Assembly (NCBI GenBank): GCA_016866755.1
Contig: VGLK01000007.1
Location: 1 to 34,187 of the forward strand
DNA: 34,187 nt
Source: Candidatus Saccharimonadota bacterium
GTDB lineage: Bacteria; Patescibacteriota; Saccharimonadia; Saccharimonadales; Saccharimonadaceae
Direction of reading: 5' to 3'
In this document: one piece after another, positions 1 through 33,629 of the stretch
Layout of the letters: each line of letters opens with the position of its first letter
Position numbering within the stretch: position 1 is the first letter of the stretch
Notes under the pieces: generated by a model
Told to the model about the DNA's origin: nothing
Seen by the model: only the letters and a program-made list of their open reading frames with translations
Databases searched by the model: none
Translations under genes and position numbers: made by a program

Positions 1-1289
1 ATAAAGTCGTGGGGGCCAAACACGGTTTGGCTGACAATTTTTTCGTTAATAGATTCTATGCTGCACATTGTGGCAAATTGGTCTATATATTGTGCTACCA
101 GCGTATTTTGTTCTGCTTTGGTAGGAATTTTTCCACTCGGTAGAGGTACTAATATAAAGAGGTTTTCATGATGACTAGGCGCGAGTGTATGGTCGGTTTT
201 TGAAGGGTTACACACATACATAGAAGCTGGGCTCGGGTACGTTTTATTACTATAAATTGCATTAAAATTTTGTTTCCAATCCTCTGCAAATAACAAGTTG
301 TGGTGTGTAAGTTGCGGAAGTTCGGTGTTTAGACCGAGATAAATAAGCAGCGCCGACGGACTTGACTGGAGTTTGTTCCAGTAGCGCGGCGACCATGAGC
401 GGTCGTGTGGTGCAAGCAGCGCAGTTTCGGTATGATGAATGTCACCATTCGAAATAACAATGTCTGTCCTAAGCGTAGTTTGGTGACTGGTAGTAACAGC
501 GGTGACCTGTGAATTTTTAGTAAGAATAGCGGTTGCTTCACAGTTGTAGGTAATGGTTGCTCCACTGGTAAGAGCGAGCTTTTCGAGTGAGCGGCTGATT
601 TCGTAAAGGCCTTTTTTAGGGTAAAAAACGCCGCTTGAAAAATCGAGGGCACTCATAAGACTGTAGAGAGCCGGAGCCGAAAAAGGCGAGGTGCCAAGAA
701 ATACCATTGGATACTCGATAATTTGCTGCAGTCGTTGATCTTGAACGTAGCGCCGCGTAAAGCGGTGAAGTGGCGTGAGCGCACGCTGTAACATTATGTG
801 TGCCCGCCAAATAACTGGCCACGAAATGAGTTTACTCCACTCCCTTAGAGAAGAAAAGTTGGTGTAGAGAAAATAACGTAGCGAGAGTTCGTAAATTTTT
901 TGCGCATCTTGAACGTAGCGCTTCAGAGAAAGGCCAGCGCCCGGCTCAATCGCCTCAAAAGTGGCGGCATCGGTAGTGAGGTTTCCAGTGACAGTGATTG
1001 GTGGCTGCTTTTCAAAAAAGACTCGGTAAGCTGGGGAAAGTTTTTGAAGCTCGAGTTCGGACTGTGCTGAACGGCCAAAATGTGTATAAAATCGCTCGAA
1101 CACTTCGGGCATAAGGTACCACGAAGGGCCCATATCAAAGGTAAAGCCGTCTTTTTTTAGTAGATCAGCTCGCCCGCCGGGTCCGGCATTTTTTTCTATA
1201 ACTTCTACTTGGTAGCGACCGGTTTTAGCGAGCAAGGCAGCGGTGGCGAGTCCGCCAATGCCAGCGCCAATAATAACAACTTTTTTCAT
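1..1289 (-). CDS. crtI: Phytoene desaturase CrtI, 3'-truncated by window edge
   Basis: FAD-dependent desaturase that converts phytoene to lycopene or neurosporene at the membrane. I translated it by hand from the ATG at 1289; the frame stays open to the left edge, giving about 429 residues of a family usually near 490-510, so the C-terminus lies outside the window. The N-terminus has the FAD-binding Rossmann motif VVIIGAGIGGLATAALLA (about residues 3-20), the second strand VEVIEKNAGPGGRA and the CrtI signature FDMGPSWYLMPEVFERFY. A later GVFYPKKGLYEIS segment matches the family's conserved GVWYPKGG region. The ATG overlaps the crtB stop in an ATGA arrangement, so translation is probably coupled. 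The number of desaturation steps cannot be read from the sequence. Confidence in the family is high. Confidence 0.93.
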   Translation of the reverse strand, partial: MKKVVIIGAGIGGLATAALLAKTGRYQVEVIEKNAGPGGRADLLKKDGFTFDMGPSWYLMPEVFERFYTHFGRSAQSELELQKLSPAYRVFFEKQPPITVTGNLTTDAATFEAIEPGAGLSLKRYVQDAQKIYELSLRYFLYTNFSSLREWSKLISWPVIWRAHIMLQRALTPLHRFTRRYVQDQRLQQIIEYPMVFLGTSPFSAPALYSLMSALDFSSGVFYPKKGLYEISRSLEKLALTSGATITYNCEATAILTKNSQVTAVTTSHQTTLRTDIVISNGDIHHTETALLAPHDRSWSPRYWNKLQSSPSALLIYLGLNTELPQLTHHNLLFAEDWKQNFNAIYSNKTYPSPASMYVCNPSKTDHTLAPSHHENLFILVPLPSGKIPTKAEQNTLVAQYIDQFATMCSIESINEKIVSQTVFGPHDF

Positions 1290-2128
1290 GCGGTGTGCCT
1301 TTTCTTTCTAAAATTAAAGAGCGAGCGACCAAGATAAGCTGTTTTTGTATGTACGGGAACACGGACTCTGACGCCAGATTTTATATCGGCCGCACTAGTG
1401 GCTGACAACCGCTCAAGCAGCGCCGAGTAGTAGCGGTAACTTAACTCTACGGCCGAACGGGACGAGGCTGGCAGTTGCGAAATGGCCTGTTGGGCGCAGA
1501 TAAAATCGGCTTGGCACTCAGTTATAATTTGCTGCTTTAATGTTTCGTCAAAAGTTTCAAACGAACCGTACGGAAAATACCAGCGACCGCGCTCGTGATA
1601 ATCACTAGCAATATCGCGCAAAAAATTAACCTTTTGATAGGCTGCACCTAGCGCCCTAGCGCCGGGGATTAGTTTTTGATAAAGAGAAAAATTTTGGCTA
1701 GTAAACACACCTAAGCACAGCAGGCCAACTACTTCGGCCGATCCATAAATATAAGTAGTATATTCCTCTGCTGTAAAGCGAGTTTTAGTAATATCGGCAC
1801 GCATGCTAGCAAAGAAAGGTGCGAGCAAAGAGGTGTCGAGTTTGTAGATTTTTGCGGTTGAGATAAACGCGTGCACAATGGGATTGGCGCTATAGCCGAT
1901 AGCTATTCCGCGTTGCACGTCGGCTTCAAGTTCGCTTAGTAATTCATTCATTGCCGGCCCCTTGTAGGTGTCAACAATTTCATCGGCAACCCGAACCAAT
2001 CCGTAAATATCATAAATTGCCTGCCGGTATTCTGGGGCGATTAGTTGGGTGCTAAGACTAAAAGAGGTAGAATATTGCTTGGTAAAGTAGCGGGCGGTAC
2101 TGTGCGAGAGACGGGTGTAGAGATCCAT
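1286..2128 (-). CDS. crtB: Phytoene synthase CrtB
   Basis: Condenses two GGPP to phytoene, the first committed carotenoid step. At 280 residues it is the normal length. Both Mg-diphosphate-binding Asp motifs are visible: DEIVD (49-53) and DIASD (172-176, within NFLRDIASDYHERGRWYFP). The N-terminus MDLYTRLSHSTARYFTKQYS matches the usual squalene/phytoene synthase start. I chose the ATG at 2128, one base after the crtE stop, rather than an upstream in-frame ATG at 2158 that would overlap crtE by 29 nt and add ten atypical residues. It is the middle gene of crtE-crtB-crtI, and its TGA overlaps the crtI start. A squalene-synthase-like role is less likely given the neighbours. Confidence 0.95.
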   Translation of the reverse strand: MDLYTRLSHSTARYFTKQYSTSFSLSTQLIAPEYRQAIYDIYGLVRVADEIVDTYKGPAMNELLSELEADVQRGIAIGYSANPIVHAFISTAKIYKLDTSLLAPFFASMRADITKTRFTAEEYTTYIYGSAEVVGLLCLGVFTSQNFSLYQKLIPGARALGAAYQKVNFLRDIASDYHERGRWYFPYGSFETFDETLKQQIITECQADFICAQQAISQLPASSRSAVELSYRYYSALLERLSATSAADIKSGVRVRVPVHTKTAYLGRSLFNFRKKRHTA

Positions 2129-2129
2129 G

Positions 2130-3212
2130 TTATTTATCTCTATGGGTGCAGGCGTCAACGATGTCGTATAGACTGCGCTTAATTGATTCGGAAATTTGCA
2201 GATTGTTTAAGATAGCACGGGCATTTTCAGCAAGAGCTTCAATTCTTTTTTCGGTTGCCGTTTTAGCGCCCGATTCGGTTAGAATGCGACGAACCGTTTC
2301 TATATCTTCGGGGGTTGAATGGTGATTGCCGTACAGGCGATTAAACGCCTCGAGCTGTTTAGGGGAGGATAGAACACGACATTGCTCGGCGAGATAGGTG
2401 CGTTTACCTTCTAGTATATCGCCACTAGTAGACTTACCGGTTTTTTGGCTATTACCGAATGTACCCAGTAAATCGTCCGTCAACTGAAAAGCAATGCCAA
2501 GATTTTGGCCAAAATCGGCTAACTGTTTTTTAAGCTCTTCGCTCGCACCGGCGGCAGCGGCGCCCACAAGCAGTGGTCCTACGCAGCTGTAGCTGGCGGT
2601 TTTATGTTGGTTTACAAGGAGCGGCGGAATTGCTACATCGTGCAAAATAGGCGCTTCTGTATCGAGTAGTTCACCGCCCACAACTTCGTAAAAGGCATCT
2701 ATGGTGTGGGCGCGCACTTCTTGCAGGCGGTCGGGTGGTAACGGGCTTTTATCCATTAGCGTAAACACGCTCACCAATAGTAAATCGCCCGCTAAAAGTG
2801 CGCTGGTGGTAGCGTAATGCCGGAGTTCTTGAGGATCATTTAGGTAGGGGGCGTAAATGTCGAGGTATTGACCACTCACGTTTTTAATGCCGTAGCGAAC
2901 ATCGTCGCGATCAATAATATCGTCGTGCACTAACATTGATAGATGTAACAACTCGTGAGCCGTTGCAATTGGCGTTACGGCATCAAGATTATTACCGCCA
3001 GCAGCCTGATAACCCAAAAAAACTAAATAAGGTCGAAGCCGTTTACCGCCAACTAATGTTAAACGCTGGATAGATTCCCAGAGTAGCCCATAACGTGGAT
3101 GCAGAGCAGCAGCGTTTTGTAGCTGCGCCCTAATAAACGGATCTAGTACATCACTCACCCTTGTTTTGGTGTCCGAAAGATTAATAGCGGTTAGGTGAGC
3201 GGGCGTTGTCAT
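2130..3212 (-). CDS. crtE: Polyprenyl (probably geranylgeranyl) diphosphate synthase CrtE
   Basis: Trans-prenyltransferase that should supply GGPP to CrtB by chain elongation from IPP and allylic diphosphates. The 360 residues contain the GGKRLRP IPP-binding motif (55-61), the first Asp-rich motif HDDIID (DDIID at 97-101) followed by RDDVRYG, and the second Asp-rich motif FQLTDDLLGTFGN (DD at 246-247). The first motif is the short DDxxD form, without the two-residue insertion of classical proteobacterial CrtE, and the usual RRG after it is RYG. Chain length is therefore inferred from the neighbours, not the motifs. It is the first gene of the operon, with a TATACT box 11 nt before the ATG and no Shine-Dalgarno. 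Confidence 0.9.
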   Translation of the reverse strand: MTTPAHLTAINLSDTKTRVSDVLDPFIRAQLQNAAALHPRYGLLWESIQRLTLVGGKRLRPYLVFLGYQAAGGNNLDAVTPIATAHELLHLSMLVHDDIIDRDDVRYGIKNVSGQYLDIYAPYLNDPQELRHYATTSALLAGDLLLVSVFTLMDKSPLPPDRLQEVRAHTIDAFYEVVGGELLDTEAPILHDVAIPPLLVNQHKTASYSCVGPLLVGAAAAGASEELKKQLADFGQNLGIAFQLTDDLLGTFGNSQKTGKSTSGDILEGKRTYLAEQCRVLSSPKQLEAFNRLYGNHHSTPEDIETVRRILTESGAKTATEKRIEALAENARAILNNLQISESIKRSLYDIVDACTHRDK

Positions 3213-3223
3213 AGTTACTGATT

Positions 3224-3229
3224 AGTATA
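3224..3229 (-). promoter_or_regulatory. Extended -10 of the crtEBI operon
   Basis: On the minus strand TGT-TATACT lies 11 nt before the crtE ATG, and only 3 bp separate it from the last base of the msrA stop. The predicted RNA start is within about 5 nt of the ATG, so the transcript would be almost leaderless. No convincing -35 was seen. Confidence 0.55.
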
Positions 3230-3232
3230 ACA

Positions 3233-3754
3233 TTAGCGAAGCCAAGTACTAAACGATTGCCTAACGGATTGAAGTTTTGGGTTAATAACCACCGAGCAGT
3301 AGCCGCTAGCTGGCTGTTTTGCAAAGTAGTCTTGATGTTCAGGCTCGGCTGGGTAAAAGGCTGCAGCTGGCGTTACTTCGGTTACAATTGGCTTATCCCA
3401 TAATATTTGCGCTCGCTCTATGGCTGTCATTATTTCATTTTTTGCCGCCATGTTGTCGTAAAATATAATTGAACGGTATTGAGTGCCTACATCGGCACCT
3501 TGTCTGTCTTTAGTGGTAGGATTATGACTTGCAAAAAATATATCAAGCATAACCGAAAGGGGAATAGTTGTTTCGTCAAACTGAACCCGCACTACTTCGG
3601 CGTGGCCAGTAGTACCGGTAATGACGTCGTAATATGATGGGTTTTGCAGTTCACCTCCGCTAAAACCCGACTGAACTTCTATCACGCCTGTCGCTTGCTG
3701 ATAAATTGCATCAAGGCACCAAAAGCAGCCACCGCCTAAAACAATTGTTTTCAT
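3233..3754 (-). CDS. msrA: Peptide-methionine (S)-S-oxide reductase MsrA
   Basis: Repairs S-form methionine sulfoxide in proteins or as the free amino acid. The protein from the ATG at 3754 has 173 residues and begins with the family hallmark GGGCFWC, the catalytic Cys being C10. Further family blocks follow: SGFSGGELQNPSYYDV, TGHAEVVRVQFD, FFASHNPTT and GTQYRSIIFY. A C-terminal YCSVVINPKLQ segment supplies a possible resolving Cys. A longer frame upstream from 3823 adds residues not seen in the family and overlaps the promoter, so I reject it. A TATTAT box sits 6 nt before this ATG with no SD, so the mRNA is probably leaderless. It is a single-gene unit, divergent from the exonuclease gene. 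Confidence 0.95.
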   Translation of the reverse strand: MKTIVLGGGCFWCLDAIYQQATGVIEVQSGFSGGELQNPSYYDVITGTTGHAEVVRVQFDETTIPLSVMLDIFFASHNPTTKDRQGADVGTQYRSIIFYDNMAAKNEIMTAIERAQILWDKPIVTEVTPAAAFYPAEPEHQDYFAKQPASGYCSVVINPKLQSVRQSFSTWLR

Positions 3755-3760
3755 ATCAAT

Positions 3761-3766
3761 ATAATA
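3761..3766 (-). promoter_or_regulatory. -10 box of msrA, leaderless start
   Basis: TATTAT on the minus strand ends 6 nt before the msrA ATG; no SD is present. A transcript starting about 7 nt after the box would begin at or next to the A of ATG. Confidence 0.4.
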
Positions 3767-3824
3767 GGCAGCGCGAGGGAAGTTGTCGGTTAAAATACTC
3801 ACACGCACTAGGGTGTATAACAAC

Positions 3825-3830
3825 TATACT
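3825..3830 (+). promoter_or_regulatory. -10 box of the exonuclease/GIY-YIG gene
   Basis: TATACT ends 6 nt before the ATG at 3837, and no ribosome-binding site fits between, so a leaderless mRNA is predicted. Confidence 0.5.
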
Positions 3831-3836
3831 TAGAGT

Positions 3837-5264
3837 ATGAATATATTTCAGCAGCCACTAGTGTGCGTTGATATTGAGACTGATGGTATGAATTATCAGC
3901 GTGGTCATGTAATTGAGGTGGCTGTACTTCGAATTGAAGGAGGTGAAATTGTTGATGAGTTTTCATCACTAGTCAATCCGGGTGTTGATATTCCCCCGTT
4001 TATTACTGGCCTCACTGGTATTACTACGAGCGATGTGCAATCGGCTCCGGCTTTTGATGATCTTGCCGAGCGACTACTTGAAATTATGGACGGAGCGGTA
4101 TTTGTGGCGCATAACGTTCGGTTTGATTTTTCGTTCTTAAAACAAGAATTTCGCCGCGTGGGATTAAACTTTAAACCATCTATGCTTTGTACGGTCAAGT
4201 TGTCGCGTGCCCTGTATCCCGAGGTGGCGGGTCATTCATTGTCTAAAATTATTGCCCGACATAATTTGTCATACTCAGCTCGTCACCGCGCTTATGATGA
4301 TGCCCATGCCCTTTACCAATTGCTGCACGTTATGCACCGAGACCACGGTGAAGCGGCAGTATTTGCGGCGGCTCGTCGACAGTCGCAGCTGCCGAGCTTA
4401 CCTAGGCATTTAACTCGGGCGCAAATAGACGCCTTACCAAACAAGCCGGGCGTGTATATTTTTCGCGATGAACAAGGCGCGCCGTTGTACGTAGGTAAAA
4501 GTGTCAATATTCGCCGTAGAGTACTGAGCCATTTTGTGCGTGACAGCGAGGAATACCGAGAGTTTAAAATGGCGCAGCTGGTGTACGACGTGAGTTACCA
4601 CGTTACCGCCGGTGAACTTTCAGCTCTGCTACTCGAATCGCATTTAGTAAAAACTCTGCACCCGCTTTACAACCGTAAATTGCGCCGCCAGCGACAATTT
4701 GTGGTAGCTAAGTACGAGGCAAACGCGCACGGTTATTACAGGCTTATTTTTCGTCAACTTCACGATATTCCATCTAGCGAACTGGCTACAATTCTTGGCG
4801 TTTACACCAACCGCTCCAAGGCTAAGGCCAGTGTGCTATCGGCAGTGCGTACCTACGATTTATGTCCTCGCCTGTGCGGACTTGAAAAAGGTGAAATCGG
4901 TAGTTGTTTTTCTTATCAATTGGGGCGCTGCCGTGGAGCCTGCAGTCAAAAAGAGCCGAGCGAAACCTACAACGCACGGCTGCTGGGCGCCTTCGAGCGC
5001 ACGACGCTTGATGCGTGGCCGTATAAGGGTGCAGTAAGTGTGAGCGAATCGCAAGATCACGCAAGTGGTTTCATAGTAGATAATTGGCGTATTATCGGTG
5101 CTTTTTCTAGTAGCAATGATGGTGACGACATGCAGTTAACCGCGTACGACAACATTTTTGATATTGATGCCTATAAAATTGTGCGAGCCTTTTTTAGAGA
5201 CAAACACCACACCTTATCAATTAAACCGCACCAGTCTCACAGCAAAAACAAGCCAAATTTTTAG
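3837..5264 (+). CDS. DnaQ-like DEDDh exonuclease fused to a UvrC/Cho-type GIY-YIG nuclease
   Basis: Two-domain DNA-processing protein of 475 residues. Residues about 8-165 form a DnaQ/epsilon-type 3'-5' exonuclease: ExoI VDIETDG (D12, E14), ExoII HNVRFDF (D97) and ExoIII HRAYDDA (H150, D155), so all DEDDh metal and catalytic residues are present. Residues about 200-290 form a UvrC-like GIY-YIG domain with GVYIF (205-209), YVGKSVNIRRRVLSHF and the Glu-bearing LLESHLVKTLHPLYNRKLR. After it comes a Cys cluster (CPRLCGLEKGEIGSC then CRGAC) as in UvrC N-terminal halves. Similar fusions are known in actinobacteria. The likely role is excision or trimming during DNA repair; the substrate is unknown. 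The UvrB-binding and second nuclease halves of UvrC are absent. Confidence 0.9.
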   Translation: MNIFQQPLVCVDIETDGMNYQRGHVIEVAVLRIEGGEIVDEFSSLVNPGVDIPPFITGLTGITTSDVQSAPAFDDLAERLLEIMDGAVFVAHNVRFDFSFLKQEFRRVGLNFKPSMLCTVKLSRALYPEVAGHSLSKIIARHNLSYSARHRAYDDAHALYQLLHVMHRDHGEAAVFAAARRQSQLPSLPRHLTRAQIDALPNKPGVYIFRDEQGAPLYVGKSVNIRRRVLSHFVRDSEEYREFKMAQLVYDVSYHVTAGELSALLLESHLVKTLHPLYNRKLRRQRQFVVAKYEANAHGYYRLIFRQLHDIPSSELATILGVYTNRSKAKASVLSAVRTYDLCPRLCGLEKGEIGSCFSYQLGRCRGACSQKEPSETYNARLLGAFERTTLDAWPYKGAVSVSESQDHASGFIVDNWRIIGAFSSSNDGDDMQLTAYDNIFDIDAYKIVRAFFRDKHHTLSIKPHQSHSKNKPNF

Positions 5265-5355
5265 CTTGTGCTTATGCCGTGGTGGGTGTAGTATAACTAC
5301 GAAAGACTAAAATTTTTAGCTATTTCTCTTATTAAAACTACCACCTTAGAAAGGG

Positions 5356-5361
5356 TATAAT
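5356..5361 (+). promoter_or_regulatory. -10 box of the Na+/H+ antiporter gene
   Basis: A perfect TATAAT ends 5 nt before the ATG at 5367. There is no SD, so the mRNA is predicted to be leaderless. Confidence 0.55.
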
Positions 5362-5366
5362 CTGGT

Positions 5367-7481
5367 ATGGAAATCTCAATTACCTCTGTCCTATCATTAC
5401 TTTCGCTTTTAGCAATCGCCTCAGCGCTATTTTTTATTGCCAAACGTTTTAAAATTCCGTACACCGTCTTGCTGGTATTGGTGGGTATTTTATTAGTGCC
5501 AATTGTTAGCTCGCCGTGGCTAGAACCGTACTTTGGCTTTCTTGATGACATGCAGCTCACGCCCGAACTGTTATTCTTTATCTTTTTGCCGGTACTAATT
5601 TTTGAATCTGGCTACAATATGAATATCCGGCGCATGATTGATAATGCCTGGACAATTTCGCTGTTAGCAGTGGTGGGATTGCTAATTTCTACTACACTTA
5701 TTGCAGTAGCATTATATTTTGTAATGCCGTTAGTAGGCATTGAGTTGCCGTTTATTGTGGCGTTGCTATTCGGAGCAATTATCTCCTCAACCGATCCGGT
5801 GGCAGTATTGGCGCTGTTTAAAGAATTTGGCGCGCCTAAGCGACTCACGATGATTTTTGAAGGTGAAAGTCTATTTAACGACGGAACGGCCGTGGCGCTA
5901 TTTATGGTAATTTTGGCAATCATTACCGAAGGTTTTAATGGTAGTGCTACTGTGTTAGAAGGAATTGGCTCGTTTGTGATGATGGTGATTGCTGGCATTG
6001 TACTGGGGCTTGGTATGGCGCTGGTATTTTCACGGGCGCTCAAATGGACCAAGCGTAACGACACCGTAACAGCTACGCTGCTGATAATTTCGGCTCATTT
6101 AGTGTTTGTGGTGAGTGAAATGATAAATCACGACGGCCTGTTTGGGCTTGAGGTGCACGTATCGGCCATCATCGCTACTACTGTTTCGTCGCTGTTTTTA
6201 GGCAACTACGCCCGGCATATTCTTTCGCGTCAAACCGACGAGTACATGGAAAAAGCTATTGACCATATGGCGTTTATGGCCAACTCATTAGTCTTTCTGC
6301 TGGCTGGATTACTGTTTGCTTCATCGGGTGTCGACTTTGGACAATTGTGGCTGCCAATTTTAGTGACAGTGCTAGTAGTTATGGTGGTGCGCGCTATTTC
6401 AGTTTTTGCGGTAACGACGCCAATTAATCTATTAAGTAAAAACGAACGCATGCCACTAAGTTGGCAGCTGCTGCTTTCTTGGGGAAGTTTGCGTGGGGCG
6501 CTGGCGATTATTATTGTGCTGTTAATTCCAGAAGATGTGACGGTTGCCGGCTGGAGCCTTGAATATTCGGTTCGTGATTTTGTACTAGCACTCACAATTG
6601 GTTGTATTTTAGCTACGCTATTTATAAAAGCGCCGCTTATGGGGCCGCTTATGCGACGACTCTCAATTAATCAACCCGACCCTTTAGGATTAGCCGACGA
6701 ATCTGACCTTGGTATCTACTATTTGTTAACGCAAAAATCGCGCTTTGCAACTCAGCGAACACGCGGATTTGTAAAAGACAGTGAGTATCAAGGTTTAACA
6801 GATGCGGTATCTTCGCGCCTTACTCAGGCGCATGCCGAGCGCGACGCATTACTCTCTCAGCACGGCCGTCAGCTATTTGAGCAGTCGTTGCACCACAAAA
6901 CTATTCGCATAGAAGCCTATGTGCTTAAGCAGCTACTTATGAATGACGAGGTGAATGAGCGAGTGTATCGTCGAATTAACGGTAAGCTTAATTTGCAGCG
7001 AGAAAAAATTGAATATGCCAAGATTGAGTCGATTGACCCGTCGGTGTACTCTGATCGAAAAGATGTGTTTGATCGCCTAATGAACTTTTTGCAGAGCCGA
7101 CTAGAGCGTGGACAGTCTAGTAAATTTACGGTAGAAGAGAGGTTGCAGTATTATCGGGCGCAAATGATTATGGCTCGAAAGGCCATTAAAACCCTAACCG
7201 CCATGCAGCACGAATTTAGCGAGCCAGTCTTTATGCCAGAAATTTTTGATAAGGTGATGTCGCGCTACCAAGTGTACAAAGAGAAGAGTGCCAGTAAGGT
7301 AGATGAACTACTCGAACAGCACCAGGCGGAGCTTGCTCCGTACCTAGCGACGCTGGCAGCCAGATCGCTTAACTCGTCTGGTGTGCGAGCATTAAACTTT
7401 TTGCATTCACGCGGTATTTCAACCGAAGACATTGAAGAAACCGTTGAGCATACCTTTAGTGTGACTAACTCTCGTGGTTAA
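5367..7481 (+). CDS. CPA1-family Na+/H+ antiporter
   Basis: Exchanges Na+ (or K+) for protons across the membrane. The 704 residues comprise about 12 hydrophobic helices (roughly 5-435) followed by a long soluble C-terminal region of about 270 residues. CPA1 signatures are present: SSTDPVAVLALF (about 140-151) in the discontinuous helix and GESLFNDGTAVALF (about 166-179) with the ND ion-binding pair at 171-172. The charged tail could be a regulatory domain; I recognise no RCK or CBS domain in it. Its stop overlaps the GTG of the next gene by 8 nt, so the two are probably co-translated. The exact cation cannot be told from the sequence. Confidence 0.9.
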   Translation: MEISITSVLSLLSLLAIASALFFIAKRFKIPYTVLLVLVGILLVPIVSSPWLEPYFGFLDDMQLTPELLFFIFLPVLIFESGYNMNIRRMIDNAWTISLLAVVGLLISTTLIAVALYFVMPLVGIELPFIVALLFGAIISSTDPVAVLALFKEFGAPKRLTMIFEGESLFNDGTAVALFMVILAIITEGFNGSATVLEGIGSFVMMVIAGIVLGLGMALVFSRALKWTKRNDTVTATLLIISAHLVFVVSEMINHDGLFGLEVHVSAIIATTVSSLFLGNYARHILSRQTDEYMEKAIDHMAFMANSLVFLLAGLLFASSGVDFGQLWLPILVTVLVVMVVRAISVFAVTTPINLLSKNERMPLSWQLLLSWGSLRGALAIIIVLLIPEDVTVAGWSLEYSVRDFVLALTIGCILATLFIKAPLMGPLMRRLSINQPDPLGLADESDLGIYYLLTQKSRFATQRTRGFVKDSEYQGLTDAVSSRLTQAHAERDALLSQHGRQLFEQSLHHKTIRIEAYVLKQLLMNDEVNERVYRRINGKLNLQREKIEYAKIESIDPSVYSDRKDVFDRLMNFLQSRLERGQSSKFTVEERLQYYRAQMIMARKAIKTLTAMQHEFSEPVFMPEIFDKVMSRYQVYKEKSASKVDELLEQHQAELAPYLATLAARSLNSSGVRALNFLHSRGISTEDIEETVEHTFSVTNSRG

Positions 7482-8097
7482 ATCAGCGCCGCTCCAGCTA
7501 CTGTCCGATCAGGTAGATGAGCGAGAGGTAGCGATTGTGCTGCGCGAGCTGAGTTCTATAGAAAATATTCACGGCGACGTAGTAGAGTTTGGTTGCTATG
7601 TGGGCACTACCAGCGTGCATATTGCTCGCGAGTTAATGGGAGTAGCGCGCCAGTTTTATGTGTACGATTCGTTCGAAGGTTTACCGCCCAAGGCTGTACA
7701 AGACGAAAGTCCGGCTGGAACACAATTTGTTGCTGGAGCGCTGGCGGCTTCCAAAAAAGAATTTATCGCTAATCTTAAACGGGCCAATGTGCCGTTGCCA
7801 CGTATTAAAAAAGCTTGGTTCAACAGGCTTAGTCCGGAAGATATTCCCGAGAGGGTGGCATTTGCTTTCTTAGATGGCGACTACTACGATTCAATTCTCT
7901 ATCCGCTCCAACTGCTAACGCCCAAGCTGGTGGCGGGTGCAAAAATTGTAATTGATGATTACGCTAACGAGGCGCTACCGGGTGCCGCTAAGGCTGTTAA
8001 TGAATGGTTGGCGCGCTATCCAAACGCTAAAATAAGAGTCGAGCATTCCATGGCTATAATTTCGTGGGACAGCCAAAAAGCCAGCGTCCGCCAATAA
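7474..8097 (+). CDS. TylF/MycF-family SAM-dependent O-methyltransferase
   Basis: Class I methyltransferase of the macrocin-O-methyltransferase (TylF) type, 207 residues. A glycine-rich SAM-binding loop VVEFGCYVGTTSVHIAREL (about residues 26-44) is followed by YVYDSFEGLP, the metal-binding type FAFLDGDYYDSILYPLQLL and IVIDDYANEALPGAAKAVNE. Family members methylate sugar hydroxyls of secreted glycans or antibiotics; the substrate here is unknown and could be a surface polysaccharide. The start is the GTG at 7474, which overlaps the antiporter stop; no later ATG keeps the N-terminal helix intact. There is no functional link to the antiporter beyond coupling. Confidence 0.85.
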   Translation: MVKSAPLQLLSDQVDEREVAIVLRELSSIENIHGDVVEFGCYVGTTSVHIARELMGVARQFYVYDSFEGLPPKAVQDESPAGTQFVAGALAASKKEFIANLKRANVPLPRIKKAWFNRLSPEDIPERVAFAFLDGDYYDSILYPLQLLTPKLVAGAKIVIDDYANEALPGAAKAVNEWLARYPNAKIRVEHSMAIISWDSQKASVRQ

Positions 8098-8103
8098 ATA
8101 CGC

Positions 8104-8109
8104 TATAAT
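8104..8109 (+). promoter_or_regulatory. -10 box of the first corA-like gene
   Basis: A perfect TATAAT ends 9 nt before the ATG at 8119. With initiation about 7 nt downstream the leader is only 2-3 nt. Confidence 0.5.
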
Positions 8110-8118
8110 AGGGGTACT

Positions 8119-9039
8119 ATGCTTGTCTATCTCCGATCAAATAATTACCGACCGGCTATTAAGCCGCGTGCAACGCTATCGCCGGGTAGTTGGATTCGGT
8201 GTGAGCGGCCAAGCGAGAATGAAAAGCAAGAGTTGTTGGCGCTAGGGATTGACGAAGACGTTCTTTACGATGCGCTGGATCCGCACGAGGTACCACGCGT
8301 AGAGAGCGGTGAAGACGGTTGGACTTATTTTATTACACGCCTGCCAGATACCGATGATCAATTTAACGATTTTACTACGCCAATTCTTTTTGCTCTTAAC
8401 CGTGAATATCTGGTAACAATCAGTCGCGATTCACTCACGCGTTTATGGCAGCCGTTTATAGATCGCACTAAAACACCAACTACACAGCAATCTAAGCTGT
8501 TAATGGCGATGATTGAAGCGATTATTAATCAGTATCAGCACCGCGTGGCGGCTATTAACCGCCTCACCCGCGCCGCCACTAGTGACGTTAATAATCTACG
8601 CTCGAAAGATATCGCCACGCTTACCGAATACGAGCGCAAGTTAAACGACTTTCTTGATGCCCTTATTCCCACCAATACCGCCACCGAAAAACTGCTTAGT
8701 GGTAAATTTATCCGGCTCTACGATGATGACCGCGACCAGGTAGAAGACCTCTCAATTGACCTAGAGCAGCTGATTGCTCGCTGTAAAAGCCTGCTGCGCT
8801 CTATTACCAACGTACGCGATTCGTACCGGGCGGTCATGGACACCCGATTGAACGAAACAATTCAGCTTTTAACTGTTATTACCCTTGCGCTAGCAATTCC
8901 AACTATGTTAGCTGGGCTTTTTGGCATGAACGTAGCTATTCCGGGGAACGAGAATTCGCCGCTGGCCTTTTGGGGAGTTGTAGCGGTTAGCGTGGTGTTG
9001 TCGTTGTCGTTTGTAGTATATTTTATGCGGCGACGTTAA
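8119..9039 (+). CDS. CorA-like divalent cation (Mg2+/Co2+) transporter, copy 1
   Basis: Pentameric Mg2+ channel subunit, 306 residues, near the usual size. The large N-terminal cytosolic domain is rich in charged helices (for example the stretch around LIARCKSLLRSITNVRDSYR), followed by two C-terminal TM helices. The selectivity motif GMN is at 269-271 in LFGMNVAIP, and the protein ends FMRRR. The usual acidic E after GMN plus the periplasmic loop is relaxed (PGNENSPLAFW). It is followed 12 bp later by the PAP2 gene, probably as an operon. A second copy with the same architecture lies at 11856. Confidence 0.9.
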   Translation: MLVYLRSNNYRPAIKPRATLSPGSWIRCERPSENEKQELLALGIDEDVLYDALDPHEVPRVESGEDGWTYFITRLPDTDDQFNDFTTPILFALNREYLVTISRDSLTRLWQPFIDRTKTPTTQQSKLLMAMIEAIINQYQHRVAAINRLTRAATSDVNNLRSKDIATLTEYERKLNDFLDALIPTNTATEKLLSGKFIRLYDDDRDQVEDLSIDLEQLIARCKSLLRSITNVRDSYRAVMDTRLNETIQLLTVITLALAIPTMLAGLFGMNVAIPGNENSPLAFWGVVAVSVVLSLSFVVYFMRRR

Positions 9040-9051
9040 GAGAGGCGTGCG

Positions 9052-9744
9052 ATGAAAAAACCACTTCACACCCGCCAAAGTCTCTATTCAGCCACAGGTG
9101 CCTCTAGGGCTTTGCTGCACCGCATTGCTATAGCGACCGTAATTTTTGGTTTAGGTTTAGCGCTCTTTGTAGCCATTGCGCTGGCGGTTCATCTAGAGCG
9201 AGCCACTGAATTTGATATTGCGGTAACAACATTTATTCAGAGTTGGCGTTCGCCAGAACTTACGGTTATTTTTAAACTTATTAGCGACGTTTCAGGCCCA
9301 TTTGTATTACCTCTAATTGTAATTGGTCTTTTGGTGTGGGCGTACGTGCGACGACTGCCGGGTAAATTTTGGTTTATGCTAGTAGCGCTCGGTGGATCGG
9401 CCATCTCAAATCTTATACTTAAAGCAGTGTTCGACCGAGCGCGACCAGATATGATGACTTGGCTTATACAAGAGACTGGCCTGTCGTTTCCAAGTGGCCA
9501 CGCCATGGCCTCAATGTCGTTTGTACTTACGGTAATTATTATTTTGTGGAATACACGCTGGCGACGGTTAAGTATTATTTTAGGAGCAATTAGCGTACTG
9601 CTGGTAGGTATTTCGCGGCTGTATCTTGGTGTGCATTATCCAACCGATGTTATTGCAGGCTGGGGCGTGGCGGCCGCTTGGGTGTTTATTGTGCTAGTTG
9701 CTTGGCTCGATGTGCGTCTGCATCATCTTTCGGCTACAAAATAG
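9052..9744 (+). CDS. PAP2-family membrane lipid phosphatase
   Basis: Integral-membrane phosphatase of phosphatidate, PGP or undecaprenyl-diphosphate type, 230 residues with about six TM helices. All three PAP2 motifs are visible: KAVFDRARPD (K-x6-RP), the PSGHA core with catalytic His near residue 149, and SRLYLGVHYPTDVIAG with the second catalytic His. The active site should face outward. The ATG at 9052 follows the corA-like stop by 12 bp with a weak AGAGG upstream. Its end overlaps the convergent kinase-like gene by 11 bp. The substrate is open; undecaprenyl-PP recycling and PA dephosphorylation are both plausible. Confidence 0.9.
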   Translation: MKKPLHTRQSLYSATGASRALLHRIAIATVIFGLGLALFVAIALAVHLERATEFDIAVTTFIQSWRSPELTVIFKLISDVSGPFVLPLIVIGLLVWAYVRRLPGKFWFMLVALGGSAISNLILKAVFDRARPDMMTWLIQETGLSFPSGHAMASMSFVLTVIIILWNTRWRRLSIILGAISVLLVGISRLYLGVHYPTDVIAGWGVAAAWVFIVLVAWLDVRLHHLSATK

Positions 9745-30514: not shown

Positions 30515-31249
30515 TTAGATTCCCCCTAGAAGAACGGCTTTAGCAAACAATATTTTTTCGGTATAAAGATAAAAGCCCAGTAATACCAACAGGCTACCGC
30601 CACTAAACTGCAAAAATCGCTTATTTTTTTCTCGCCACAGCTGAATTCGGCTAAGTGAGTGGCCGCTACCAACTAAAATCCAGACAATACCAAGTGATAG
30701 CGAAGCGCTAAGAGTATAGACAAGAATACCAACCAATTGCCAGCCAGTTGATGGCAGGAGGGGAATAAGTAGTGCTGCAGCTGCTAATGGTCCGGCAATA
30801 AATAGTATTTCGGCAATGACTGTTGAAAGTCCAAGGCTAAACGCTTCGGCTGGATCGCGTGTGGTTTTGGCTCGTTTGGTTAAAAACTGCGCCATAGAGC
30901 GTGGTAACCACAGCGATGTACCAGTACTTTTGCGGTAATAAAACACCCAGGTTGCAATCCCAAGTCCAATCAGTAGTCCGCATACAATTGCCCAAGCTAG
31001 CAGGGGAATGCCACTGTGCGAGAATATATGCAGAGTAGTGTAAACGGCGCTAGTAATAAGTAGCAAGGTCATAATAATAGTGCCCAAAAGGTAGCTACCC
31101 GAAAGTCGCAAGACGCGTTTAAAGTGGGTTTTTTTGCCAATGGCGTGCCCAGAAAGCAGCGTCAGCACGCTTACGCTCAACTGGTAGCTGGCGTGAATCA
31201 GTCCGCAGGCTACAATGAGCGCTAACGTGAGAAGTGTTTCTGGATTCAT
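30515..31249 (-). CDS. Six-TM membrane protein, CcdA/LysE-like topology, unknown
   Basis: 244 residues with about six hydrophobic helices: near 5-30, 48-72, 82-106, 140-168 (IAEILFIAGPLAAAALLIPL), 172-198 and 215-232, with a basic cytosolic loop about 107-135 (YYRKSTGTSLWLPRSMAQFL). The layout of two three-helix halves recalls CcdA/DsbD-beta or LysE-type exporters, but the paired redox Cys of CcdA are absent (only two scattered Cys). I cannot assign a family. The first gene of the operon with the ATP-cone and flavoprotein genes, so it may be their membrane partner, for example for export or electron transfer. Confidence 0.6.
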   Translation of the reverse strand: MNPETLLTLALIVACGLIHASYQLSVSVLTLLSGHAIGKKTHFKRVLRLSGSYLLGTIIMTLLLITSAVYTTLHIFSHSGIPLLAWAIVCGLLIGLGIATWVFYYRKSTGTSLWLPRSMAQFLTKRAKTTRDPAEAFSLGLSTVIAEILFIAGPLAAAALLIPLLPSTGWQLVGILVYTLSASLSLGIVWILVGSGHSLSRIQLWREKNKRFLQFSGGSLLVLLGFYLYTEKILFAKAVLLGGI

Positions 31250-31310: not shown

Positions 31311-32327
31311 TTATTGATGAATAGACAAAAAGTGTTCTCTGTTGCGCTGAATATGTAAAATAAGATCGCGCTCCTGCGAAAGTTTAATGTATTTTTGAAT
31401 GTCGCTTAGCAGTTGATTGCGATCGGCTGTTTTAAGGTCAAATATTTCAAGAAGTAGATTGTAAACTTCGTCGTTAATAGCCTTAATTTCTTGCAAGCTT
31501 TCGGCTTTTCTGGTGGCAATAAGGCGAGCCGCCTCGTTTTCGCGAAAACTAACCGTTACGCGATCAAAAGTTTTTAGTTTTACGCTTGGGTTACGTTCTT
31601 CTTTCGTAGTAAGCGCGTCAAGTTGCTTTTGGTACTTATTGCGCAACTCTAAAATTGCCACAAAACTCCAGTCTTTTTGCACAATTTTACCCACAATATG
31701 ATTAGTGCTGTGCGAAAGCATTTGAAGAATCGTATCAATTTCTTCTAGCCGAGCGTCTTCGTCTTGAACCATTTTTTGGCGCTCTTTATGAATGGATAGG
31801 GCGGCGCGTTGTCGCTCTAGCCAGCCACCGTGCGGATCGAGCAAGGTAACGTCGTGAGCTTCAGCTGCTGCCATTACTTCAATAAAAGTACCGTAACGAG
31901 TGGCGAAATCATCAATTTCGGCTGGGTTGCGACCAAGAAGCTCCTCAGCGTAGGCACGCTGATACACCTCTTCGTGAATATCAATTGAATATAAATTCGT
32001 CAACACCTCATCAAGCAGTTGCGCTTTGCGGTGTTCAACCATGCGTTCAATTGCTAACTCCGCCTGAGTCTCATCGTAGCCAATTCGGCGCATAATTAAT
32101 GTACGAAAACGAGCGTCTTCTAACTCGCTTTGTAAATCGTTAAATACCGGCTCAATTTGTTCAATCCAGGCTTTTAACACGTCTGATGTGAGTACGTGTT
32201 CAGTTTCGAGCGCCGCGGCCAGTTCGCGGTCGTGCGGCCCAAATTTTGTCAACGCATCGGTTGCCTCGGCTCTAAATGCCTCGCGATCGATACGAATTGT
32301 CTCTTCGAAATTTTTAATCCCACCCAT
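31311..32327 (-). CDS. Long helical (coiled-coil) cytosolic protein, unknown
   Basis: 338 residues from the ATG at 32327, 10 nt after TGT-TACAAT. A frame reaching 32513 would pass through this promoter and the divergent one, so I reject it. Almost entirely charged helix with no TM or signal, for example AWIEQIEPVFNDLQSELEDA and ERQRAALSIHKERQKMVQDE, DEDARLEEIDTILQMLSHST. Low Cys content; heptad-like spacing in several stretches suggests coiled coils and a structural or scaffold role. No family recognised. It is divergent from the Zn alcohol dehydrogenase, 117 bp apart; no evidence of a joint function. Confidence 0.65.
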   Translation of the reverse strand: MGGIKNFEETIRIDREAFRAEATDALTKFGPHDRELAAALETEHVLTSDVLKAWIEQIEPVFNDLQSELEDARFRTLIMRRIGYDETQAELAIERMVEHRKAQLLDEVLTNLYSIDIHEEVYQRAYAEELLGRNPAEIDDFATRYGTFIEVMAAAEAHDVTLLDPHGGWLERQRAALSIHKERQKMVQDEDARLEEIDTILQMLSHSTNHIVGKIVQKDWSFVAILELRNKYQKQLDALTTKEERNPSVKLKTFDRVTVSFRENEAARLIATRKAESLQEIKAINDEVYNLLLEIFDLKTADRNQLLSDIQKYIKLSQERDLILHIQRNREHFLSIHQ

Positions 32328-32337
32328 AGATATCGTT

Positions 32338-32343
32338 ATTGTA
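32338..32343 (-). promoter_or_regulatory. Extended -10 of the helical unknown gene
   Basis: TGT-TACAAT on the minus strand ends 10 nt before the ATG at 32327; near-leaderless start, no SD. Confidence 0.4.
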
Positions 32344-32411
32344 ACATAATAATTACGCTTATTATTTAAATGTATGTAAGATTGATTACTAAACAAATAA
32401 GCCGCACGTTT

Positions 32412-32436
32412 TACAATATAAAGATAAATAAGGAGG
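32412..32436 (+). promoter_or_regulatory. -10 and strong SD of the Zn alcohol dehydrogenase
   Basis: TACAAT at 32412-32417 and AAGGAGG at 32430-32436, 8 nt before the ATG at 32445. The SD fixes this start rather than an upstream in-frame ATG at 32370. Confidence 0.55.
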
Positions 32437-32444
32437 TGTCTAAT

Positions 32445-33629
32445 ATGAAAGCAGTGACGTGGCAAGGAAAGAAGAAAATTGCAGTTCAAACTGTTAGCGA
32501 CCCGATTATTCAAGAACCAACAGATGCCATTATTAAAGTTACCTCAAGTGGGCTGTGCGGTTCGGATTTGCACTTATATGAAGTAATGACTCCATTTATG
32601 AATGAAGGCAACATTCTTGGTCATGAGCCAATGGGTATTGTGCAAGAAATTGGCTCTAGCGTGACTAACCTTAAGGTGGGTGATCGGGTGGTTGTGCCGT
32701 TTAATATTTCGTGCGGACATTGCTTTATGTGTAATGACGGCATGCAGTCGCAGTGCGAGACTACACAGGTGCGCGAGTTTAACCGCGGAGCGGCATTGTT
32801 TGGCTACACTAAATTATACGGCGAAGTAGCGGGCGCTCAGGCAGAATATTTACGGGTACCACACGCCGATTATGGTGCCGTAAAAGTACCGGCAGGTCCA
32901 AGTGATGATCGCTTTTTGTACCTTTCAGATGTACTGCCAACCGCATGGCAAGCGGTTGAATACGCTAAAATTCCTAAAGAAGGCACGGTTGTGGTGTTCG
33001 GCCTGGGGCCGATTGGAGAAATGGCAGCACGTATTGCTAAATATCGTGGGGCAAAAATGGTAATTGGTGTTGATGTGGTGCCGGATCGGCTAGAGCGAGC
33101 CAAACGGCGCGGTGTGTATACTGTTAATGCTGAGACTCAGTCTAATGAACTTATCGATATTATTGCATCGTTGACCGATGGACGTGGCGCCGATGCCGCA
33201 ATTGATGCCGTTGGTATGGAGGCGCACGGCAGCCCTGGAGCTAAATTACTACAGTCAGGTGCCGGTATGTTACCCGATGTGGTAGCTGAAAAAGTATTTC
33301 AAAAAGCTGGAATCGATCGGTTATCGGCGTTATTGATGGCCATGGAATCTGTGCGGCGCGGTGGAACACTGTCAATTGTTGGAGTGTATGCCGGTGTGGC
33401 CGATCCGCTACCGCTTGGCACGCTGTTTGATCGTCAGATAACTATTAAAATGGGGCAGGCTAATGTTCGCCGTTGGACAGATGATATTTTGCCGCTTCTT
33501 ACCGATAAAGATGAGCTGGGCGTAGATGATTTTGCAACTCATCATCTTTCGCTCGATGAGGCGCCAGAGGCATACGAAAAGTTTCAGCAAAAGGCTGATG
33601 GCGCATTTAAAATAGTATTTAATCCATAG
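32445..33629 (+). CDS. Zinc-dependent medium-chain alcohol dehydrogenase
   Basis: 394 residues of the class III/formaldehyde- or threonine-dehydrogenase-like MDR group; oxidises an alcohol with NAD(P). Catalytic zinc ligands: C38 in SGLCGSDLHLYE and H60-E61 in GHEPMGIV. Structural zinc: C90, C93, C96 and C104 in CGHCFMCNDGMQSQC. The Rossmann fold is VVVFGLGPIGEMAARIAKYR, with VIGVDVVPDRLERAKRRGV after it; the Asp of GVD favours NAD+. AIDAVGMEAHG and a long insertion around 265-290 recall glutathione-independent formaldehyde dehydrogenases. The substrate cannot be fixed. It has a strong SD and is followed 18 bp later by a small acidic gene, probably co-transcribed. Confidence 0.92.
   Translation: MKAVTWQGKKKIAVQTVSDPIIQEPTDAIIKVTSSGLCGSDLHLYEVMTPFMNEGNILGHEPMGIVQEIGSSVTNLKVGDRVVVPFNISCGHCFMCNDGMQSQCETTQVREFNRGAALFGYTKLYGEVAGAQAEYLRVPHADYGAVKVPAGPSDDRFLYLSDVLPTAWQAVEYAKIPKEGTVVVFGLGPIGEMAARIAKYRGAKMVIGVDVVPDRLERAKRRGVYTVNAETQSNELIDIIASLTDGRGADAAIDAVGMEAHGSPGAKLLQSGAGMLPDVVAEKVFQKAGIDRLSALLMAMESVRRGGTLSIVGVYAGVADPLPLGTLFDRQITIKMGQANVRRWTDDILPLLTDKDELGVDDFATHHLSLDEAPEAYEKFQQKADGAFKIVFNP

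Follow-up and report, generated by a model that had tools for sequence, protein, structure and literature searches.

A six-gene crt operon in a Saccharibacterium, probably for a cyclic C50 carotenoid built from external C5 units

The window analysed here is the whole of contig C7 (34,187 nucleotides). The genome to which it belongs comprises 7 contigs with 848,146 bases in total and is 99.8% complete, with 0.01% contamination. The left end of the window carries the carotenoid genes crtE, crtB and crtI, the last of which runs open into the contig end (Table 1). The first-pass annotation had described these three genes with intact aspartate and FAD motifs, and Pfam and NCBIfam searches together with a motif check bore this out. 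The tight coupling of the genes was also read correctly: crtB and crtI share an ATGA overlap (1286-1289), and crtE is separated from crtB by a single base (2129) with the crtB start placed at the ATG at 2128. This start is backed by the homologue alignment; a longer ORF beginning with TTG at 2158 has no homologue support. CrtB scores under all NCBIfam equivalog cut-offs. For CrtE, the closest solved structure is 3lk5, annotated as a geranylgeranyl pyrophosphate synthase; CrtE itself is 36-45% identical to the CrtE proteins of collinear Saccharibacteria operons. In a selection test, synonymous changes were saturated in nearly all pairs; the four dN/dS values that could be computed (0.08-0.16), a thin basis, are consistent with purifying selection.

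Table 1. Features of the crt locus. Coordinates refer to the window unless preceded by C5, the adjoining contig.
Feature	Coordinates	Strand	Evidence
TATACT, candidate -10 box of a near-leaderless crtE promoter	3224..3229	-	read directly from the sequence; inference only
msrA, peptide-methionine sulfoxide reductase	3233..3754	-	PF01625 9.4e-57
crtE, geranylgeranyl diphosphate synthase, 360 aa, operon gene 1	2130..3212	-	PF00348 9.6e-43; DDIID and DDLLG motifs
crtB, phytoene synthase	1286..2128	-	PF00494 1.2e-39; DEIVD and DIASD motifs
crtI, phytoene desaturase, codons 1-429 of 500, open at contig end	3..1289	-	TIGR02734 403.9 bits vs cut-off 238.1; GAGIGG FAD motif
crtYe, lycopene-cyclase-domain	about C5:74014-74322	-	TIGR03462 above cut-off
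crtYf, lycopene-cyclase-domain	C5:73691-74026	-	TIGR03462 above cut-off
crtEb-type UbiA prenyltransferase	C5:72841-73713	-	NF009608 above cut-off; NDVFDYESD and DIVPD motifs

The gene msrA, which has the same orientation as crtE, ends 20 bases ahead of it. A near-leaderless promoter had been proposed for crtE, and a TATACT box is indeed present 11 bases ahead of its ATG. As the -35 region is poor, the box is absent from the listing of a consensus promoter scan and msrA is only 20 bases away, transcription could just as well reach crtE from msrA as start at a promoter of its own, and the two genes are possibly co-transcribed. Among the loci examined, msrA adjoins no other Saccharibacteria crt operon. 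Divergent from msrA is a gene (window 3837-5264, plus strand) encoding a fusion of an RNase T-type (DnaQ-like) exonuclease domain and a GIY-YIG domain. Far to the right, two minus-strand genes without a Pfam match encode a membrane-like protein of 244 aa (window 30515-31249) and a protein of 400 aa (window 31311-32513).

To the left, the locus continues on contig C5, the end of which (L016:7847-8000) overlaps window positions 1..154 with 153/154 identical bases (BLASTN). The join was found by a mismatch-tolerant search of the contig ends; an exact-overlap search of contig ends found none. It is based on this single 154-bp overlap, in which one position differs, and on synteny rather than on reads. 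Contig C5 supplies the missing 3' part of crtI, with a stop at C5:74322, and the joined CrtI of 500 aa matches its homologues over almost the full length. It is followed by two adjacent cyclase ORFs of 108 and 111 aa (TIGR03462, 45.8 and 52.8 bits vs a cut-off of 39.4) with PLEE and PVED motifs, and by a crtEb-type UbiA gene; crtYe, crtYf and crtEb each overlap their neighbour. The gene beyond UbiA, which has a CBM60 module, is convergent, and the operon therefore ends at crtEb. With the order crtE-crtB-crtI-crtYe-crtYf-crtEb it exceeds the three genes of the window, and the earlier expectation that it would run past the left edge into a cyclase proved correct.

The UbiA protein scores 385.6 bits with NF009608 (cut-off 217) and falls below the cut-off of NF009516 (117 vs 205). 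The UbiA proteins of Demequina and Arthrobacter also match NF009608, and haloarchaeal bacterioruberin-type UbiA matches NF009516. A solved structure for UbiA was not found. In Corynebacterium glutamicum, the decaprenoxanthin operon crtE-cg0722-crtBIYeYfEb is co-transcribed and knockout-tested, and knockouts and reconstruction identified CrtI, CrtEb (the lycopene elongase) and CrtYe/CrtYf (the C45/C50 cyclase) (PMC3598387). The Saccharibacterium operon resembles it in its six enzyme families, their order, the separate CrtYe and CrtYf and the terminal UbiA lycopene elongase; it differs in having no gene for the cg0722 membrane protein and in that no MarR-type CrtR gene was recognised among its scanned neighbours. 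All the sequence features checked fit an actinobacterial-type cyclic C50 operon. The actinobacterial sequences used for comparison were those of Demequina and Arthrobacter. Demequina (Actinomycetota, Micrococcales) has crt operons with the same six genes, collinear with the Saccharibacterium operon and about 33-56% identical per protein, and forms its own clade.

We are fairly confident that the six genes are an operon for a cyclic C50 carotenoid in a Saccharibacterium, with C5 units coming from outside. CrtE would make GGPP from C5 units, CrtB would convert two GGPP to phytoene, and CrtI would desaturate phytoene to lycopene. CrtEb would then add one C5 unit per lycopene end, with the CrtYe/CrtYf pair expected to close the rings. 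The predicted product class is the decaprenoxanthin, sarcinaxanthin or C.p.450 type, between whose ring types sequence cannot tell. The window proteins lie on long branches (45-60% identical to the nearest), and a shifted product is possible. The pigment would likely serve as a membrane stabiliser and antioxidant.

With crtE, crtB, crtI and a cyclase all in place, the operon could alternatively lead to beta-carotene that is cleaved to retinal for a rhodopsin. Rhodopsins are known in some Saccharibacteria (PMC9296517), one is found in the relative G053, and another Saccharibacterium of the same order (L135; G337 C26:2000-13000) has at 3351-9319 crtI, crtB, a fused lycopene cyclase and crtE, without a UbiA gene such as crtEb and followed by a DNA photolyase. 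This last operon is of the C40, beta-carotene type, so that such a route probably exists elsewhere in the order. The first-pass annotation had suggested a rhodopsin or a Blh-type dioxygenase further to the left. The rhodopsin was not borne out: the 99.8% complete genome has no PF01036 match, and the same search detects the rhodopsin of G053. Blh is likewise unsupported, the genome having no PF15461 match in a search for which no positive control matched. Moreover, the last gene of the operon is a crtEb-type UbiA, which none of the complete collinear operons lacks and which argues for a C50 product rather than retinal. We thus rejected the retinal route for the source genome as highly improbable, given the missing rhodopsin and Blh matches (the latter without a control) and the crtEb gene. 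The published type-1 rhodopsins without blh come from the same phylum and are a light-related trait tied to actinobacterial hosts; unlike their carriers, the source genome has no rhodopsin match. That study discusses host-derived retinal, and the only crt genes it mentions are those of co-occurring Actinobacteria (PMC9296517).

The C50 operon is not confined to the source genome. The assignment to the CPR held, as the genome was placed within Saccharibacteria (Patescibacteria), where it shares a family with genomes whose crtB loci recur identically in named Candidatus Saccharibacteria records such as CP011211.1; a placement outside Patescibacteria was looked for and not found. A CrtB scan of genome contigs, with query-derived patterns that are biased toward close relatives, gave matches almost exclusively in Saccharibacteria and Demequina, the latter being the closest homologues beyond Saccharibacteria. 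At E<1e-20, 45 of 393 Saccharimonadia genomes had a CrtB-family match, 37 of these at <1e-90. CrtB of the window's own family occurs in about 9% of the 393, single-contig genomes included. The complete collinear six-gene operon was found at 25 Saccharibacteria loci, counting the window, and shorter collinear sets break off near a contig edge. All complete collinear operons keep crtE and the crtEb-type UbiA. Informative conserved neighbours of the collinear operon were not found among the loci examined.

A second arrangement, crtI-crtE-crtB with a divergent crtYe-crtYf-crtEb block, is found elsewhere in the class, in different families (L122, L124-L131, L138). Its CrtI is distinct, being about 35% identical to the window CrtI, and nusG and rplK adjoin it in eight loci. 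A third order, crtYe-crtYf-crtEb-crtI-crtE-crtB on one strand, is found in a single-contig genome (L123, G095) and branches outside the collinear set. A further locus (L134, G092 C2, 3719-6706) has genes for a polyprenyl synthetase and for a squalene/phytoene synthase next to a sigma-70 factor and close to polA; no crtI is visible there.

The position of the operon at a contig end, and the fact that its closest homologues outside Saccharibacteria are actinobacterial, would fit an assembly or binning artefact in which an actinobacterial crt operon is fused to a Saccharibacteria contig. However, the same operon is present in other Saccharibacteria, single-contig genomes among them, the window proteins cluster with Saccharibacteria homologues and outside Demequina, and the G+C content of the operon (46-48%) is similar to that of the remaining window. 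Because CrtB of this family is found in about 9% of the sampled Saccharimonadia, some of them single-contig genomes, a chimera is very unlikely; given these carriers and the grouping with Saccharibacteria homologues we rejected it and grant it next to no probability. A chimeric join between 3212 and 3837, which the first-pass annotation had raised as something that would count against the operon, was thus not supported by these comparisons.

In trees of CrtI, CrtB and UbiA, the window groups with other collinear Saccharibacteria operons, with Demequina and Arthrobacter beside or among these. In a four-gene tree rooted with haloarchaea, the actinobacterial operons sampled branch from within those of Saccharibacteria, but a test for a single clade of collinear Saccharibacteria operons did not reject one clade (p-AU 0.057). 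Actinobacterial sampling in these trees consisted of Demequina and one Arthrobacter plasmid. Transfer of the operon between Saccharibacteria and Actinobacteria is likely, in one direction or the other. Trees of CrtB and CrtI had been proposed as a way to find the donor; they place the window with Saccharibacteria and, with Actinomycetota thinly sampled, name no donor.

The first-pass annotation had proposed a lineage able to make phytoene and lycopene itself. The late pathway genes are present, but the C5 precursors appear to come from elsewhere. Genome-wide absences are based on family searches, which for precursor supply covered IspH, GHMP kinase and type 2 IDI. IspH is required by the MEP pathway, and GHMP kinases are required by all known variants of the mevalonate pathway. 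Neither family had a match in the source genome, with control genomes matching as expected, and a type 2 IDI was not found. Judged by the two marker families, neither the MEP nor the mevalonate pathway looks possible in this genome, and its C5 precursors would have to be taken from outside. This sets the Saccharibacterium, with its 0.85 Mb and no MEP or mevalonate markers, apart from C. glutamicum, which makes its own IPP. Across the 393 Saccharimonadia genomes, IspH was above the cut-off in one, and 14 had a GHMP kinase, with a single match apiece, fewer than a mevalonate pathway is generally known to need. The sole IspH-positive genome (G099 C36:6299-8363; L147, L150) has a type 2 IDI adjoining and may represent a real pathway or contamination. 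UppS is present in the source genome and, of 101 genomes in which it was sought, in 84; C5 units are thus needed from outside whether or not carotenoid genes are there.

These genomic patterns point to an external supply of IPP/DMAPP or of a short prenyl diphosphate, for which the supplier would probably be an actinobacterial host; the substrate of UppS would have to be supplied in this way as well. As all complete operons retain crtE, the entry substrate may be a C5 or short prenyl diphosphate. The same operon could also work without imported C5 units, either through an unrecognised or highly diverged precursor pathway or by using GGPP or later intermediates of the host. Marker families alone were searched, UppS in most Saccharibacteria means that some C5 source must exist, and G099 has IspH next to type 2 IDI. 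We consider this unlikely, since both pathway-essential families are absent from the genome while the control sets matched, and since no complete collinear operon has lost CrtE, which speaks for small prenyl diphosphates as the entry substrate.

The closest published precedent found comes from Lake Baikal, where Patescibacteria, one Saccharibacterium among them, have the bacterioruberin genes lyeJ-crtD-cruF (PMC9948471). These are C50 carotenoid genes from the same phylum, for an acyclic route with cruF, and mostly unclustered (PMC9948471). In contrast to this route, the source operon has CrtYe/CrtYf and a UbiA of the NF009608 type, not of the haloarchaeal NF009516 type. In a limited literature search, which is no proof of novelty, we found no report of a cyclic C50 operon in Saccharibacteria or of a pigment from any Saccharibacterium. 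The pathway itself is known; its setting in Saccharibacteria and its breadth there appear to be new.

Most biosynthesis is said to be missing from CPR bacteria. Yet roughly one in ten of the Saccharimonadia sampled have kept a complete late carotenoid pathway with the early isoprenoid steps missing. The prediction is that C5 or short prenyl diphosphates would pass from host to epibiont, with a visible pigment as the readout. For the source genome, the retinal reading largely falls away. More tentatively, and with the odds rather against it, C50 carotenoids made from host C5 diphosphates may be a widespread trait of host-dependent Saccharibacteria, with the operon exchanged with Actinobacteria, possibly both ways. 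If true, this would imply a route for the uptake of isoprenoid diphosphates that also feeds undecaprenyl synthesis.
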